DNA of 32,798 nucleotides. It comes from Planctomycetota bacterium (GTDB lineage: Bacteria; Planctomycetota; Planctomycetia; Gemmatales; Gemmataceae). Below, one piece after another: positions 3,530 to 11,112 of this stretch (position 1 is the first letter of the stretch; the number at the start of each line of letters is the position of its first letter). A program made the position numbers and the translations under genes. The notes under the pieces were generated by a model. It searched no databases, was not told the DNA's origin, and worked only from the letters and a program-made list of their open reading frames with translations. The stretch is taken from assembly GCA_016873095.1 (NCBI GenBank), contig VGYC01000072.1, positions 1-32,798 of the forward strand. Direction: 5' to 3'.

Positions 3530-4993
3530 ATGAGCCACATTCTTGAAGCCACTGGTCGCCGCAAAGTATTGATTGTCGTGCTGACGCTGGCGGCCGTGCT
3601 GGTGGGGGCCTACCTGATCCGCGGCGCCTTGCGCAGCCAGCTTTCAGGCGCGACCAGGCGCGACAGCCGCGATGTTTCGGATGCGCCGACGGTCAAGATC
3701 ATCCACCCGCAGCGCCGCAACATCGCGCGCGTCGTCGGTCAGCCGAGCTTCGTCGTCGCTTACGAGCGCACCTCCGTTTATCCGAAAATGACGGCCTACA
3801 TCGAAAAGTGGATCGTCGACATCGGCGACAAGGTCAAGAAGGGAGACGTGCTCGCCACGCTGTTCGTGCCGGAACTGGTGGAGGAGTTCAAGACCAAGAA
3901 GGCAACGGTGATACTCGACAAGGAGAAGATCGACCTGGCCCTCAAGGCGGTGAAGGTGGCGGAGGCGGACGTGAAGGCGGCCGAGGCACGTCTGGCCGAG
4001 GCCCGGGCGACGTTGGGGCAATACCAGGCCCAGGTCGGCCGCTGGGACAGCCAGGTAAAGCGGCTCAAGCGCGAGGTGGAACGCGGCGTCGTCGATCCGC
4101 AGATCCTGCTCGAATCGGAAAACCAGTGGAAAGCCAGCACGGCGGCGATGGAGGCGGCCAAGGCCGCCATTCTCAAGGCCGAGGCGGAAGTCCTGTCCAG
4201 GAAGGCCGCCGACGCCAAGGATCAGACGGCTGTTCACGTCGCGCGGGCCAATCTTGCCGTTGCCGAGAGTGAAGTGAAGCGACTGGAAGCGCTGGTTGGT
4301 TACCTCACGCTGACGGCGCCGTTTGACGGCGTGATCGTGGCGCGCAATGCCAATACCGGCGACTTCGTCCTGCCGGCCACCGGCGACCCGACGGCCATGC
4401 GCCGCGCGCCCGATCTGTCGCCAAGTGGCTCGGCCGCCCCCATCTACGTGGTGGACCGCGTCGATGTCGTCCGCGTCTTCGTCGATGTCCCCGAGTGGGA
4501 TGCCAACTTCGTGCGCAAGGGATCCAAGGCCAGCGTGCTGGTCCGCAGCTATCGCGACCAGCCGATTCCGGCCAGTGTGATACGCACCTCCTGGGCCCTG
4601 AACGTCAAGAGCCGCACTCTTCGCGCCGAAATTGATCTGACCAACACCGACTCGCAGATCTTGCCCGGCGCTTATGCCTACAGCAAGGTACACATCCAGC
4701 GACCCGGCGTCTGGTCGATCCCCATGACTGCGCTCACCTACAGCGGCGACAAGACGTTCTACTGGAGTTACAAGGACGGCGTGGCCAACCGCATGGAAGT
4801 CCAGACGGGCATCAACGACGGCCAGTACATCGAGATCACCAACCGCCGGCTCCCCACATCGTCAAGCGGCGACGACGACGGCTGGACACCCATCGACGGC
4901 AGCGAATCGGTCATCACCGCCGAGGACCTCGGCATTCTCGCCGAAGGCGCCGCGGTAAGGCTGGACGATGGCAAGGAACCGGCCACGAAGTGA
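3530..4993 (+). CDS. RND efflux periplasmic adaptor subunit (membrane fusion protein, HlyD/AcrA type)
   Basis: Adaptor of 487 residues that bridges the RND pump to an outer-membrane channel. I chose the ATG at 3530 over upstream in-frame starts because AGGAG (3521-3525) lies at the right distance and the upstream codons overlap the permease end. An N-terminal hydrophobic segment (KVLIVVLTLAAVLVGAYLI) acts as anchor or signal. The first lipoyl half (YIEKWIVDIGDKVKKGDVLATL) is followed by a long Ala/Glu/Lys-rich coiled-coil hairpin, then the second lipoyl half (LTLTAPFDGVIVARN), beta-barrel and membrane-proximal parts. This order is diagnostic for the family. No outer-membrane factor follows directly; two lie about 6 kb downstream beyond the kinase/sigma module. 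Confidence 0.93.
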   Translation: MSHILEATGRRKVLIVVLTLAAVLVGAYLIRGALRSQLSGATRRDSRDVSDAPTVKIIHPQRRNIARVVGQPSFVVAYERTSVYPKMTAYIEKWIVDIGDKVKKGDVLATLFVPELVEEFKTKKATVILDKEKIDLALKAVKVAEADVKAAEARLAEARATLGQYQAQVGRWDSQVKRLKREVERGVVDPQILLESENQWKASTAAMEAAKAAILKAEAEVLSRKAADAKDQTAVHVARANLAVAESEVKRLEALVGYLTLTAPFDGVIVARNANTGDFVLPATGDPTAMRRAPDLSPSGSAAPIYVVDRVDVVRVFVDVPEWDANFVRKGSKASVLVRSYRDQPIPASVIRTSWALNVKSRTLRAEIDLTNTDSQILPGAYAYSKVHIQRPGVWSIPMTALTYSGDKTFYWSYKDGVANRMEVQTGINDGQYIEITNRRLPTSSSGDDDGWTPIDGSESVITAEDLGILAEGAAVRLDDGKEPATK

Positions 4994-5012
4994 AGATGGA
5001 TCATCGGGATTT

Positions 5013-5084
5013 CTTCCTTCCTTGCGTGGTAGTGCCAGACAGACGAGGTTCGCGCGCCGCCTGACGGCGCGCTGGCGGGTTTCA
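5013..5084 (+). repeat. GC-rich repeat element, copy A
   Basis: Two blocks recur upstream of the outer-membrane factor gene. Block 1 (5013-5038) matches 10941-10966 at 22 of 26 positions. Block 2 (5041-5084) matches 11046-11091 at 38 of 44 aligned positions plus a two-base gap. Here the blocks are nearly contiguous; in copy B they are 79 bases apart. Both copies have the same orientation. Block 2 contains the hairpin at 5052-5072. Confidence 0.55.
5052..5072. terminator. Perfect GC hairpin between convergent genes, possible bidirectional terminator
   Basis: GCGCGCCG (5052-5059), a five-base loop CCTGA, then CGGCGCGC (5065-5072) make a perfect 8-bp all-GC stem. It lies between the 3' end of the adaptor gene (+) and the 3' end of the broken sensor gene (-), where a terminator is expected. 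No T tract follows on either strand, so termination is only inferred. The hairpin is also part of a repeat. Confidence 0.4.
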
Positions 5085-6789
5085 TTCGCGCACCGATACG
5101 CGGCCAGGTTTGACGGCGCGAAACAGTTGTCGCGACACGCGCAAGCCACTCTTGAGCAAGACCCACAGGATGAGCCCGGCGACGACGACACCCACAGCCC
5201 AGAACCAGATGAGATACCAGCCCGACCAGGAGTAGTAATCTTCCGGGGCCATCGGCTCGCGGTCGAAACGAAACGAGATCAATGCCAGCGCCACGGCGAT
5301 GACGACCGAGAGCGCGAACAAGAGGGCGAGTCGTCGCCAGCGTCCCGTGAGCGCGAGGTAAACCAACCAGCCGACGAAGAAAACAACCGCCGTTAGCGGG
5401 ATGAGCCGGCGCGGATTGTCCAACGAGGAAGCGCCAAAGACCGGAGCCCACGGCAATGGCCGCGGCCAGCCGATCTCATCCTGCTGCGCGTAGGCGAGCG
5501 GCTCCGGTTTCGGCGGCAGGTAGGCGCCGGTCGGCGTCGTTGGCCAAGTCTGCCGGCTCACCGTGTTCCACTGGCCCTGGTTATGCCATTCGCCCACAAG
5601 CTGCGGCAATCCTCGAGCGTCCCTGGTCGGCAGCACGCGGACAGCGTTGGGATTGCCGGGCACCTCGCTGCGCCAGCGCGGCTTGCCGGTGGCGGCGTCC
5701 AGGCCGTAGACCTCGCGATCGTTGCGCACGGCCAGCGCGTTTCCTTTGCTGGCAAACAGATCGACAATGGCACCGGTGTGCGAGCGCGGCAACTTCCATT
5801 TCCACAGGTAGCTGCCGTCTCCCCGGACGGCGCAGAGCTGATCGTGCGTGAAGAACAGCAATTCCTCCTTGCCGTCGCCGTCGAGGTCGAAAGCCGCCCA
5901 GTGGCGGGACGGATAGTAGAGGTCCTTGACTGGAATCCGTGTCCGCACCTGCCCCTTGCCATCCAGGACAACGATGCGCCCCTCACTGCGGCCCAGAGGT
6001 TCTATCTCCTTGAGTGGTCCTTCGTAGGCAAAGCAGACGGATTTGCGTCCCTTGCCGTCAAGGTCAGCGACCAGTGGAAAGAGCAGCTCGTCACGGCCCG
6101 CATTGCCGGTCCAGGTCCAACGGGTCTTGCCGTCGCGGCCGTCGATGGCTGCAATTTCATGAATCGTCTGGAACGCCCCCATCCGCGCCTCTTGCTTTGC
6201 GCGGTAGATGATCACTTCCGGGAAGCCGTCGCCATCGAGATCGCCCACCAGTGGCGGAATGACTGGTCGAATCGATTCGTGCGGCACGCCCTTCGTCCAT
6301 AACGGCTTGCCGTCGCGGCCGTCGTAGGCGCGCAGCTCGACCGGCACGGCCCAGGGATTGTCGCGGTCGATCTTCGTCGGCACCCACAGCACCACGTCCG
6401 GTACGCCGTCGCCGTTGAGGTCATGCAGCATTTGTTGCCCCGCGAAACGCCGCGGGATGAAACTGCCCTCCTTGAAAGGGATTCTCCAAAGCAATTCGCC
6501 GTCGCGCCCGGAGAATGCGCCGAGATGGTAATAATTGTTTTCCCAGATCGTGTGCAAGACCTCGACGACGCCGTCGCCGTTGAGGTCGGCGCACCATTCC
6601 AGGCATGGATAGTCGAAATCGACGCCACGACCGCCGCGATGGTGCGCGCTTCCCAGGGAGGAGGCATTGGGTTTGCTCTGCCTTAGTCGCGCGCCATCCT
6701 TGCCGGAGTAGGCGGCGACGTAAAAGCCGGTACCCGCTTGCGTGTCAGGATTGCCATGGGTGCCTTCCAGGCGAACCACGTCCGGGATG
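5082..6789 (-). pseudogene. FG-GAP/VCBS sensor remnant, C-terminal fragment (frame-shifted from upstream part)
   Basis: This is the last part of a former kinase-sensor protein. Coding resumes here in a new frame at the sequence read as IPDVVRLEGTHGNPDTQAG, directly after a one-base insertion. Five FG-GAP-type calcium-loop motifs are readable (for example DLNGDGVVEVLH, DLNGDGVPDVVL, DLDGDGFPEVII, DLDGDGKEELLF), four of them canonical. They suggest a beta-propeller. Three hydrophobic helices near the C-terminus (VVFFVGWLVYLAL, LALLFALSVVIAVALALI, WFWAVGVVVAGLILWVLL) would anchor the end in the membrane. The natural stop is at 5082. The open frame continues upstream to 6962, but those extra residues are out-of-frame noise. 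Removing the single extra base makes 5082-10053 exactly 1657 codons. Confidence 0.72.
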
Positions 6790-7953
6790 CCCGTCGCCGT
6801 TGAGATCGCCGTGCGGCAACGGCGGCGACAGCTTGATATCGTGCGACATCCAAATGCGAACGTTGGCCTGCCACAGGTTGCGGTCACCACGGCCGGAACG
6901 GGCGAGCAGGGTAGGCGGCGGCATCTGCAACGACAGGAAATCCACGACACCATCGCCGTCAAAGTCCTGCATCGCTTGCCAGCGGTCCAGCGCCCGGAAA
7001 GGCTCCGGCGACTTGCCGGGGATTACCAGGCAGCGCGCCGCTCCCTGCGGCGAAATGGTGTAGGCCAGGTCGAGGATGCCGTCGCCATTGAAGTCGGCCA
7101 CGATGGAATCGCTCACCTCCGGCAGCGTGTGCAACAGTTTGCCCGTGCCTCCGGAAAGTACGTACGTGATCGGCTGCCCGCCCTGGCGGATGGAGGTGAT
7201 GAGCATCGGCCAACCGTCCGGGCCGGGATGCCACCAGCGCAAGGGCGCCGGCGGATCATGTCCGAAGCCCGGTTGCGTCCACCGCCACAGGACTCGGCCA
7301 TCGTTTCCCGATAGGGCCGCCACGTGCAGCTTGGCGTCGCCGCGATCCGGTGACACCGCCGTCCAGGCGGCGAAGACGTCCTTCCAGCCGTCGCCGTCCA
7401 GATCGGGACCGGTGATGATCCTGATTTCAACGGGAAAGCCGATCTGCACAAACCGCCAGCGACGTTGCCAGCGAACTTCACCGGTGGCGCCATCGCGGAC
7501 CTGCACGCCGGCGGACAGGCCGCTCGAATAGCGGTCGGTCGGCAGGTGCAAGACCTGGGACGGCAGGATAACCTCCGGCTTGCCGTCACCGTGCAGGTCC
7601 GCCACCGATAGCCAATCGCGCTCCGGGCTATTGTGCTCGCGCTCCTGGAGGAATTCGACTTGCCAGCGGATTTGTCGCGCTGTCAGGGACAGCACTCTCA
7701 GCTCCACGATCGGCTCATTTTCCTTGCGACGCTGGAGCAACGCCACGAACCGGCCGTCGCCGTCCACATCGGCGAAGCGCGGCGGGTGCAACGGCATGAA
7801 GCCCAGATCGAGGGCCGGCCAGGCGTCCTTGCCGTTCTTGAGATCGAGTCCGACGAGCTTTTTTCCAGCGGCGAACATGACCACCGCTTGCCCCTGGAGT
7901 TGAATGACCTCGGGCTGGCAGGCGAGGTTTCGGTTATGGCCGGTGCCATCATG
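6745..7953 (-). pseudogene. FG-GAP/VCBS sensor remnant, middle fragment
   Basis: This stretch continues in the same frame as the kinase after an in-frame TAA at 7954-7956. The codons directly beyond the TAA read sensibly (HDGTGHNRNLACQPEVIQ, then VVMFAAGKKLVGLDLKNG), so coding sequence spans the stop. Five complete calcium-loop motifs are seen (DVDGDGRFVALL, DLHGDGKPEVIL, DLDGDGWKDVFA, DFNGDGILDLAY, DFDGDGVVDFLS). A sixth, DLNGDG, is interrupted by the frameshift at 6790-6792. There the plus strand has CCC where CC would restore the frame. The residues between the lesion and the stop at 6745 are out of frame. An internal ATG at 7884 could start a 379-residue product, but I see no good ribosome site. 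Confidence 0.7.
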
Positions 7954-8610
7954 TTACAGCCAATCCATGCCGAGCTGTCGTTTCCACGGCGATTTGCCGG
8001 TTCGACCGGAGATCGCCTCCACCCACGTGCGCCGTTGCGCATTCACGAAGAGAGTGATGAGGTCGGGCGTGCCGTCGCCGTCCACGTCGGCAACGGCCGG
8101 CCTGTCGATGGTATCCGCGTTTTCCAGAGGCCGCTCCTTGTCCCGCTCGCCGTAGCCGGAGCTGAACCACCACAGCGGCCGGCCATCCTTGCCGGAAACC
8201 GCCAGCAGCGCGGGTAGCAGGTTGACGTAAACCGCCCCGGCGGGAAAGATCAAGTCGCCGACGCCGTCCTTGTCGAGATCGGGGGCCGGTTGCAGCAGCC
8301 GGCCGAAGTGGCCTTTGAAGCCACCGGTGCGTTGAATCCACTCCCACTCCTTCGCATCCCGGCCCGCCGGCAGCTTTTTCTCGTCCAGGGCGAATGGACC
8401 AGGCCAGGCCGGTTGCCCCGTCGCGCCATGCAAACGCCGCAGCGAGTTGTGCGTGATGACCATCAAGTCGGTGCGGCCGCCCAAATCCAGCGGCAGGTGC
8501 GTCTCTTCCGGCTTGCGCTCCAGCGGCGGGAACAGCCAGTCATGACTCAGCCGCACGGGATAGGAACGCTGATCCCCCTTGGCCACGTCCAGCGGCCACG
8601 ATTCACTCAA
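7954..8610 (-). pseudogene. FG-GAP/VCBS sensor remnant, N-terminal fragment (after kinase stop)
   Basis: A 218-codon segment lies in the kinase frame, between the TGA that ends the kinase (8614-8616) and the TAA at 7954-7956. Across the TGA the protein reads RLSAS-stop-LLSESWPLDVA, which looks like one continuous sentence with a glycine codon GGA changed to TGA. A TTG two codons after the TGA could serve as a restart. Visible repeats are LDLGGRTDLMVI, DLDKDGVGDLIF and DVDGDGTPDLITLF, the start of the beta-propeller sensor. It has no signal peptide of its own and depends on the kinase transmembrane helix for export, which supports its being a detached domain and not an independent gene. Confidence 0.68.
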
Positions 8611-8613
8611 TAG

Positions 8614-10053
8614 TCACGAGGCGGACAGCCGTAGCTGATACGCCCCGGCCCGCAGCGCCACCGGCTTCGTGGTCGGCACCGTGAACGCAGGCACGACGAG
8701 CTTGTCATTGGCATCGATGATTTCGGCGACGAGGTTAGGCCCGTCCGTGGTCAACACGACCCGGCCAAGTTGCGCCTCGCGATACCAGTCGAGAAGCGTC
8801 GATCCGCCGATGAGGAGCGTTGCCGCCACGCCGGCGGCGACGGCGGACAGCGCCACGCTACGGCGATGATGGCGCAGCCAGCGACCTGCCCGCTCCAGGT
8901 AGCCGGGGCGACGCGCCGAGATCGGGCGATTCTCCAGATACGCCTGCAAGTCATCGGCAAGGTCCTTAGCGCTGGCGTAGCGTTTTTCCGGCTCCTTGGC
9001 GAGGCACTTGAGGACGATGGTTTCGAGATCGCGCGACAGCGAAGGATTGACGAGTCGCGGCGCGGCCGGCTCGGAGGACAAGACTTGCAGGAGCGTGTCC
9101 ATCGGCGTGGCGGCGCGGAAGGGAGGCCGTCCCGTGACCAGCTCGTACAGCACGGCCCCCAGCGAATAGACGTCGCTAGCGGGACCGAGCTTGCCGCGAT
9201 CAGCCGATGCCTGTTCCGGCGGCATGTAGCTGGGCGTGCCGACGGCGGCTCCGGTCTGAGTGTGAAACGCGGGAGCCGACGCCCCCGGCTCGCCAGCGAG
9301 TTGCTTGGCGAGACCAAAGTCCGTGACACGCGGCTGGTCGAATTTGTCGATGAGCACGTTGGATGGCTTGAGGTCGCGGTGCAGCGTGCCTTGCTGATGC
9401 GCGTAGTGGATTGCCTCGGCACATAGCTTGACGTAGCGGGCCGCTTCGTGGGGCGGCAACGGCGAGTCGCGGACCATGTCGGTCAGGTTTCGCCCCTCGA
9501 CGTAATCCATCGAGAAGTAATGTTGCCCGTCGTGCTCGCCGACCTCGTGAATGGCGACGATGTTGGCATGTTGCAGGTTGGCGGCCGTGCGCGCCTCCGC
9601 CTGGAAGCGCTGCACCTCCTGGGCGCTGGCCAGCTGACCCGCCAGGATCATCTTCAGGGCAACGATGCGATTGAGGCTGACCTGCCGGGCGCAGAAGACC
9701 ACGCCCATGCCGCCGCGAGCGATCTCGGATAGCAATTCGTAATCGCCGAAGTAGCCGACCCGGCTGCCGGCAGAAGGCATCTTGTCGCCTGGCGCGATAG
9801 TGGACAGTTCCGCCGGCGCGGCTTCGGCGCGCGGGCCAATGGTCGCTTGCGGGTCGGCGGCAGCGGCCAGCTCGCGGATGGGTTCCGCGAACTTCGCCGT
9901 GCGATCGTGATCGGCGAAGAAGGCCCGCAGTTCGTCAGCGAACTCCGGCTGACTTGCCAGCAGCGCGTCGCGATCGGGGAATTGACCGGCGTCCACCGCC
10001 TTCAGGTAGTCGGCAATGGTGACGTCCACGCAGTGCTCACGATCATCGTCCAT
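8614..10053 (-). CDS. Serine/threonine protein kinase, truncated before its FG-GAP sensor
   Basis: A 479-residue Hanks-type kinase with all catalytic elements. The glycine loop is GGMGVVF (G114-F120), the ATP lysine is K134 in VALK, the paired acid is probably E153, the catalytic loop is HRDLKPSN (D227) and the metal-binding motif is DFG (D245). The activation-segment end reads GTPSYMPPEQA. Residues 1-100 hold a sigma/kinase-linked N-terminal segment (TIADYLKAVDAGQFPDRDALL). A single transmembrane helix spans about 399-422, followed by a short extracytoplasmic beta-domain ending at RLSAS. The start ATG has GGGAGAT upstream. It lies 170 bases downstream of the sigma gene, the standard planctomycete arrangement. 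The TGA removes the presumed sensor, so the kinase may be catalytically active but deaf, or the whole gene may be decaying. Confidence 0.88.
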   Translation of the reverse strand: MDDDREHCVDVTIADYLKAVDAGQFPDRDALLASQPEFADELRAFFADHDRTAKFAEPIRELAAAADPQATIGPRAEAAPAELSTIAPGDKMPSAGSRVGYFGDYELLSEIARGGMGVVFCARQVSLNRIVALKMILAGQLASAQEVQRFQAEARTAANLQHANIVAIHEVGEHDGQHYFSMDYVEGRNLTDMVRDSPLPPHEAARYVKLCAEAIHYAHQQGTLHRDLKPSNVLIDKFDQPRVTDFGLAKQLAGEPGASAPAFHTQTGAAVGTPSYMPPEQASADRGKLGPASDVYSLGAVLYELVTGRPPFRAATPMDTLLQVLSSEPAAPRLVNPSLSRDLETIVLKCLAKEPEKRYASAKDLADDLQAYLENRPISARRPGYLERAGRWLRHHRRSVALSAVAAGVAATLLIGGSTLLDWYREAQLGRVVLTTDGPNLVAEIIDANDKLVVPAFTVPTTKPVALRAGAYQLRLSAS

Positions 10054-10223: not shown

Positions 10224-10784
10224 TCAGAGTTCTTCAATCAGCGTGTCGCGCAGGTGTTTCAAGCCGCGTTTCAACAGGCCCGCCACCGCCGTCACGCTTT
10301 TGTCCATGTGGGCGGCGATCTTGGCCACACACCAGCCCTGGCAGTAGCGCAACTCCACCGCTTCGCGCTGGGCATCGGGCAGCTGGCCGAGCGCCTCCGC
10401 CAGCCGGATCGCTTGCTCGGCGCGTGCGGCCTGCTGGCTGGGGGACGATTGCTCGGCCGCCAGCCATGCCTGGATGCGGAGCGAGGAATCCGCGATGGCT
10501 GCGTCCAGCGAGCGTTCCCGGCCCAATTCGCGCTTGGCCCGGCCGAAGGTGCGAAGCGCGTCAGCCAGCGTCCCGGCAAGCAGCTTGCGCAGCCAGGCGG
10601 CGCGGGTTGCCTCGTCCTGTCCGCGATACTGATCGCGTTGTCGGTGCGCTTGCAGTAGCGTCTGCTGCACGATATCGGAAGCGTCGAGCTTGCCCTGAAG
10701 CTGCCGGCCCAGGTGGAGACGCGCCAGCATCAGCAAGTAATGCCGGAAGCGCTCGAGGTCCGCGCCGTCCGTCGCATGGCTCAT
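10224..10784 (-). CDS. ECF-like RNA polymerase sigma factor (planctomycete kinase-linked type)
   Basis: A 186-residue sigma-70-family protein. Region 2 covers about residues 10-80 (RFRHYLLMLARLHLG, then LDASDIVQQTLLQAH, which matches the conserved ASDxVQ motif of planctomycete ECF groups). Region 4 covers about 125-182, with a helix-turn-helix in QGWCVAKIAAHMDKSVTAVAG. I chose the ATG at 10784 because GGAG lies six bases upstream; the frame is open 30 codons further but reads as non-protein. The sigma gene and the kinase follow each other on the minus strand, so the kinase may regulate this sigma or its targets. With the sensor broken, the input to this pathway may be lost. Confidence 0.88.
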   Translation of the reverse strand: MSHATDGADLERFRHYLLMLARLHLGRQLQGKLDASDIVQQTLLQAHRQRDQYRGQDEATRAAWLRKLLAGTLADALRTFGRAKRELGRERSLDAAIADSSLRIQAWLAAEQSSPSQQAARAEQAIRLAEALGQLPDAQREAVELRYCQGWCVAKIAAHMDKSVTAVAGLLKRGLKHLRDTLIEEL

Positions 10785-11112
10785 GGCTTCTCCACAAGAG
10801 ATATGGTCGTCAAGAAAAGGAATAGCGGGCGCGCGAAAATGATCAAGACACCTGTCACGCCAGCAGGTTGGCAATGGCTTCAGTCAGTTACCGGATCCGT
10901 GCCCTCGTACCGACCCAGCCTGACAAGCCTTTGTGATTCTCTTCCTGACTTGCCTGGTCGTGCCAGCTTGACGGCAAATCGTCCTTGTTCGCCATTGACA
11001 GGAAGGCGCGGGTCGGGTACTGACGCCGGCCAATTAGCAGACAACAGATGAGGTCCGCGCACTGCGCCTGCCGGCGCGCTGCCGGGCTTCACCAACATGC
11101 AAGGAAGGAATC
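10785..11112. other. Divergent intergenic region between sigma gene and outer-membrane factor gene
   Basis: This is 328 bases without a supported gene. It must hold the promoter of the sigma/kinase module (-) and probably one for the outer-membrane factors (+). I could not find a convincing -35/-10 pair for either. It contains repeat copy B, split into two blocks. The open frames here lack ribosome sites and protein-like composition. Confidence 0.5.
10941..11091 (+). repeat. GC-rich repeat element, copy B (split)
   Basis: Block 1 at 10941-10966 and block 2 at 11046-11091 correspond to the adjacent blocks of copy A at 5013-5084, in the same orientation. The 79 bases between the blocks here replace 2 bases in copy A. 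The two copies lie on either side of the sigma/kinase module. Confidence 0.5.

Follow-up and report, generated by a model that had tools for sequence, protein, structure and literature searches.

Pairs of an ECF sigma factor and a membrane Ser/Thr kinase have been described in several bacteria, among them PknS-EcfK of Xanthomonas citri, PknT-EcfP of Vibrio parahaemolyticus and ECF43. PknS phosphorylates the sigma factor EcfK directly (PMC13147305). When deprived of its periplasmic domain, PknS is phosphorylated without a stimulus, whereas the full-length protein is not, and the versions without the periplasmic domain failed to complement (PMC13147305). Phosphorylation has also been proposed to regulate the planctomycete ECF59, ECF61, ECF62 and ECF217 (PMC13147305; PMC8999054). 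Furthermore, membrane kinases of planctomycetes can carry WD40 or TPR repeats in the periplasm (PMC11032199).

The locus described here lies in a 32,798-nucleotide stretch of a Gemmataceae assembly (GCA_016873095.1, contig VGYC01000072.1), hereafter the window. Like the known pairs, it places a membrane Hanks-type kinase gene beside an ECF sigma gene and connects the kinase to an extracytoplasmic domain across one membrane helix. It differs in that the sensor consists of an FG-GAP propeller and additional membrane helices at the C terminus, and in that the kinase is now without this sensor. The cytoplasmic Pkinase domain, membrane helix and long C-terminal repeats are shared with the WD40 and TPR kinases; here, however, the repeats are FG-GAP, and neither FG-GAP nor a propeller is mentioned in PMC11032199. 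Premature stops and a frame change set against intact relatives are also what recent nonsense and frameshift pseudogenes of bacteria display, though no accompanying missense erosion is visible in this case. We favor, with a probability of roughly two in three, the reading that a single gene of a familiar type of signaling pair was inactivated very recently, which would be an ordinary event.

Direct translation of the minus strand from 10053 to 5082 reveals one ancestral protein-coding gene. It starts with ATG at 10053, preceded by a Shine-Dalgarno-like GGGAG. The first open reading frame of 479 codons is closed by TGA at 8616-8614, beyond which the unchanged frame is open to TAA at 7956-7954 and then again to about 6790. 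At this point the coding signal shifts into the frame that terminates at 5082, and the C-terminal part is unbroken up to that stop. The span of 4972 nt equals 3 x 1657 + 1, in agreement with the first-pass annotation, which had calculated that one base less leaves exactly 1657 codons. A codon-usage HMM that can pass through in-frame stops or change frame against a penalty finds strong coding signal in all four segments (+98, +41, +73 and +96 nats), and GC3 is 77-81% across them. Pfam matches persist on either side of the breaks (Pkinase, FG-GAP_3 and PQQ_2). The features are listed in Table 1.

Table 1. Lesions, gene segments and neighboring sigma factor gene, in window coordinates
Feature	Position	Strand	Basis
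Lesion 1, in-frame TGA	8614..8616	-	translation; alignment column
Lesion 2, in-frame TAA	7954..7956	-	translation; alignment (poorly conserved stretch)
Lesion 3, +1 frame change in GGG run	6790..6792	-	HMM call at 6792; within calcium-loop motif
Surviving ORF, 479 aa	8614..10053	-	Pfam PF00069 E 5.6e-51; HRDLKP and DFG; hydrophobicity
FG-GAP segment, lesion 1 to lesion 2	7957..8613	-	FG-GAP_3 E 3e-7
FG-GAP segment, lesion 2 to frame change	6793..7953	-	FG-GAP_3 E 1.6e-13
C-terminal FG-GAP/PQQ-like part with three membrane helices	5082..6789	-	PQQ_2 E 2e-11; FG-GAP_3 E 7e-11; hydrophobicity
ECF sigma factor gene, directly upstream of kinase gene	10224..10874	-	Sigma70_r4_2 E 8.7e-12; Sigma70_r2 E 5e-5

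The surviving frame encodes a complete kinase domain (residues 105-361) with the HRD and DFG motifs of a Hanks-type Ser/Thr kinase, a membrane anchor (residues ~398-416) and about 60 residues of a juxtamembrane domain; the sensor is missing from it. FG-GAP_3 scores above the Pfam cut-off in each of the three downstream pieces, and 13 FG-GAP-type calcium loops are present, eight up to the frame change and five after it, so that several repeats of a propeller are recognizable. By hydrophobicity, a membrane segment lies at residue ~398 and three more lie toward the C terminus. A further, weak stretch of hydrophobic residues at position 600 falls within an FG-GAP blade and probably does not form a membrane helix. 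The first-pass annotation had described a kinase with one transmembrane helix, about 13 FG-GAP loops and three C-terminal helices, and all of these elements were found. Its placement of a TGA at 8614-8616, a TAA at 7954-7956 and an extra base at 6790-6792 was likewise reproduced by translation and the HMM.

A profile of the juxtamembrane region, searched against 397 genomes of the class Planctomycetia, recovers 32 copies in 22 genomes. Most of the copies examined are single open frames of ~1430-2030 codons, and those bearing a kinase have ~1480-2030. The open homologues carry the membrane helix and the FG-GAP loops, and as a rule they also have two to five helices at the C terminus. Exceptions are a copy of 1212 codons without C-terminal helices (G003), copies at contig ends and the G027 relative (L038:5986-11242, minus strand), whose frame changes once, close to a run of six G, possibly through a sequencing error. 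Only the window copy has a stop inside the matched domain. We take the long frame to be the original state, because the kinase-bearing relatives within Planctomycetia are mostly single open frames of ~1480-2030 codons. The window gene is thus disrupted relative to intact homologues in the manner of a pseudogene. The search of its own genome assembly returned no second copy. Some copies lack the kinase; for example, G194 has a row of eight consecutive paralogues that comprise only the sensor part, with juxtamembrane domain, FG-GAP repeats and C-terminal helices (L170 and L171 on G194:C276, ~13-45 kb), and no ECF sigma gene was found in these two stretches.

The homologues align across the break sites. 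This alignment to planctomycete kinase-FG-GAP proteins, which the first-pass annotation had proposed as a check, together with the coding signal and the Pfam matches, bears out its claim of a single minus-strand protein. The calcium loop containing lesion 3 is read in one frame by the homologues. Programmed frameshifting at 6790-6792 was considered and rejected, because the homologues keep this conserved loop in one frame.

The first-pass annotation preferred decay of the gene over random assembly error, and the two halves of that judgment fare differently. For the background, we sampled 60 stretches of 20 kb (1.2 Mb) from the same assembly. The in-frame-stop penalty of the HMM was relaxed until the two stops of the gene were recovered, and the background was counted at the same setting, yielding 23 frame changes and eight in-frame stops. 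Three of these stops resemble selenocysteine codons, at least two represent neighboring operon genes in one frame, and several of the frame changes are ordinary gene overlaps. The 28 non-selenocysteine lesions are therefore an upper bound that contains many false calls, and the background rate is at most one per ~43 kb. At most 0.12 lesions are expected per 5 kb, giving P ~2.4e-4 for three or more, a value to be read with the caveat that the gene was picked for looking broken and that the genome has more than 1600 stretches of such size. Across the window's remaining 24 kb of coding sequence the same HMM detects no lesion, in keeping with the earlier statement that the remaining genes are intact, and the chance that all three lesions of the window fall in one gene is P ~0.005. 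These figures argue against uniform error, the explanation already held to be the weaker one, but do not prove biology.

Decay in the sense of erosion, on the other hand, is not visible. We compared the copies at the columns that at least 85% of the other copies conserve. In its sensor part the window copy deviates from the family consensus at 2 of 84, the lowest count among 19 copies, and beyond the first stop 82/84 family-conserved residues survive; in its kinase part it deviates at 8 of 107, a value inside the range of the rest. Two neutral nonsense changes predict ~30-45 missense changes, or 2-3% of residues, with a wide interval. The sensor branch of the window copy is of ordinary length; this and the 2/84 count give no sign of relaxed constraint after inactivation, a comparison with low power for a recent event. 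No copy from the same species or genus occurs among 99 relatives or 95 family genomes, and the window's own protein has no match in the wider contig collection. Given the low missense count, the damage is therefore very recent, or part of it is consensus or strain-mixture error. We caution that multiple breaks in a gene need not mean erosion; it is the comparison with intact relatives that tells old decay from a recent or unreal event. We note that the kinase and sensor trees of the window gene (5082-10053) conflict, as though its kinase part had been swapped for another: in the kinase tree it clusters with G027, G366b and G187 (support 1.0), in the sensor tree with G366a and G189.

The most serious alternative holds that the organism has an intact gene and that consensus errors or strain mixing at the locus account for two or three of the lesions. 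The conservation of sensor residues past the stops is what such a gene would display, the assembly is fragmented (548 contigs), and the frame change amounts to a single base in a short run of G, within a motif that is repeated. Nevertheless, two of the lesions are substitutions to stop codons, and the G run that holds the third is only three bases long; the rarity of lesions elsewhere in the assembly and their concentration in this one gene, as calculated above, also speak against it. We regard an intact gene as possible and clearly less probable than inactivation; it too would be nothing out of the ordinary.

Two further alternatives would leave the protein, or its parts, in use. Fission into separate functional kinase and sensor proteins could draw on the complete kinase ORF and on two potential restarts, TTG 8610 and GTG 7884, of which GTG 7884 follows AGGGG. 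Neither restart has a signal peptide, TTG 8610 is without a ribosome site, and the propeller would still be cut by the frame change, which together make fission quite improbable. Reading of the first TGA as selenocysteine, with a protein longer than it appears, is the least credible of all. The assembly does encode SelB above the curated cut-off (G000:C81), and convincing in-frame TGA selenoprotein candidates, such as a deiodinase-like one, are present. The column of lesion 1, however, holds Gly in 15, Ser in two and Arg in one of 18 homologues and never Cys. Folding of the 62 nt that begin at the TGA is no more stable than that of shuffled sequence (z 0.09), a weak test in which a good candidate scores z 0.03, and the TAA and the frame change would be left unaccounted for.

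A conserved sigma-kinase pair with an FG-GAP propeller kinase emerges as a by-product of this analysis. Beyond the window, 15 of the 20 homologous loci retrieved have a homologue of the sigma gene next to the kinase gene, in most cases downstream of it but upstream in G366b, as in the window. With adjacency conserved across genomes, the ECF sigma factor is likely the partner of the kinase, and the FG-GAP-sensor subtype of the planctomycete kinase-sigma pair is conserved and apparently undescribed. The region 2.2 motif is D-[AP]-S-D in 13 of 16 sigma factors, including that of the window, and S-A-S-D in three. Its Ser stands where EcfP has its phosphorylated Thr (window 10224-10874; L036, L037, L152-L168) and is the presumed phosphorylation target. 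Membership in ECF43 was rejected, as the acidic residues are retained here, whereas ECF43 lacks those of DAED.

Under the favored reading of very recent inactivation, the gene would originally have encoded a membrane-bound Ser/Thr receptor kinase whose FG-GAP propeller served as extracytoplasmic sensor and whose partner was the adjacent ECF sigma factor. In the intact protein the propeller likely sensed something outside the cytoplasm and activated the kinase, which in turn would phosphorylate the neighboring sigma factor. The sensor part would then have been inactivated by two nonsense mutations together with a frameshift of one base. The cell would now make at most a 479-residue membrane-anchored kinase, deaf to the original signal, and the downstream sensor segments would yield no useful proteins, because the possible restarts lack a signal peptide. 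By analogy with sensorless PknS, which is phosphorylated but does not complement, the truncated kinase is more likely non-functional in signaling than a permanently active switch. That the truncation is instead a rewiring, in which the kinase freed from its sensor keeps the neighboring sigma factor on without a signal within this apparently undescribed FG-GAP-sensor subtype, is accordingly judged unlikely.

Finally, some TGA codons are probably translated as selenocysteine in this organism, though that of lesion 1 is not among them. The stronger Rfam matches, on inspection, contain no tRNA-Sec; ARAGORN calls them tRNA-Leu or tRNA-Ser, and one match at a contig edge, without an ARAGORN call, reads like tRNA-Ser. 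Two AhpC-like paralogues with an in-frame TGA in LCYV(TGA)KYNGEA (L091:3911-4474 and 4719-5306) are candidate selenoproteins, as is the deiodinase-like product of L096:18799-19875, which has the motif FGSFT(TGA)PPY and matches T4_deiodinase with E 3e-30.
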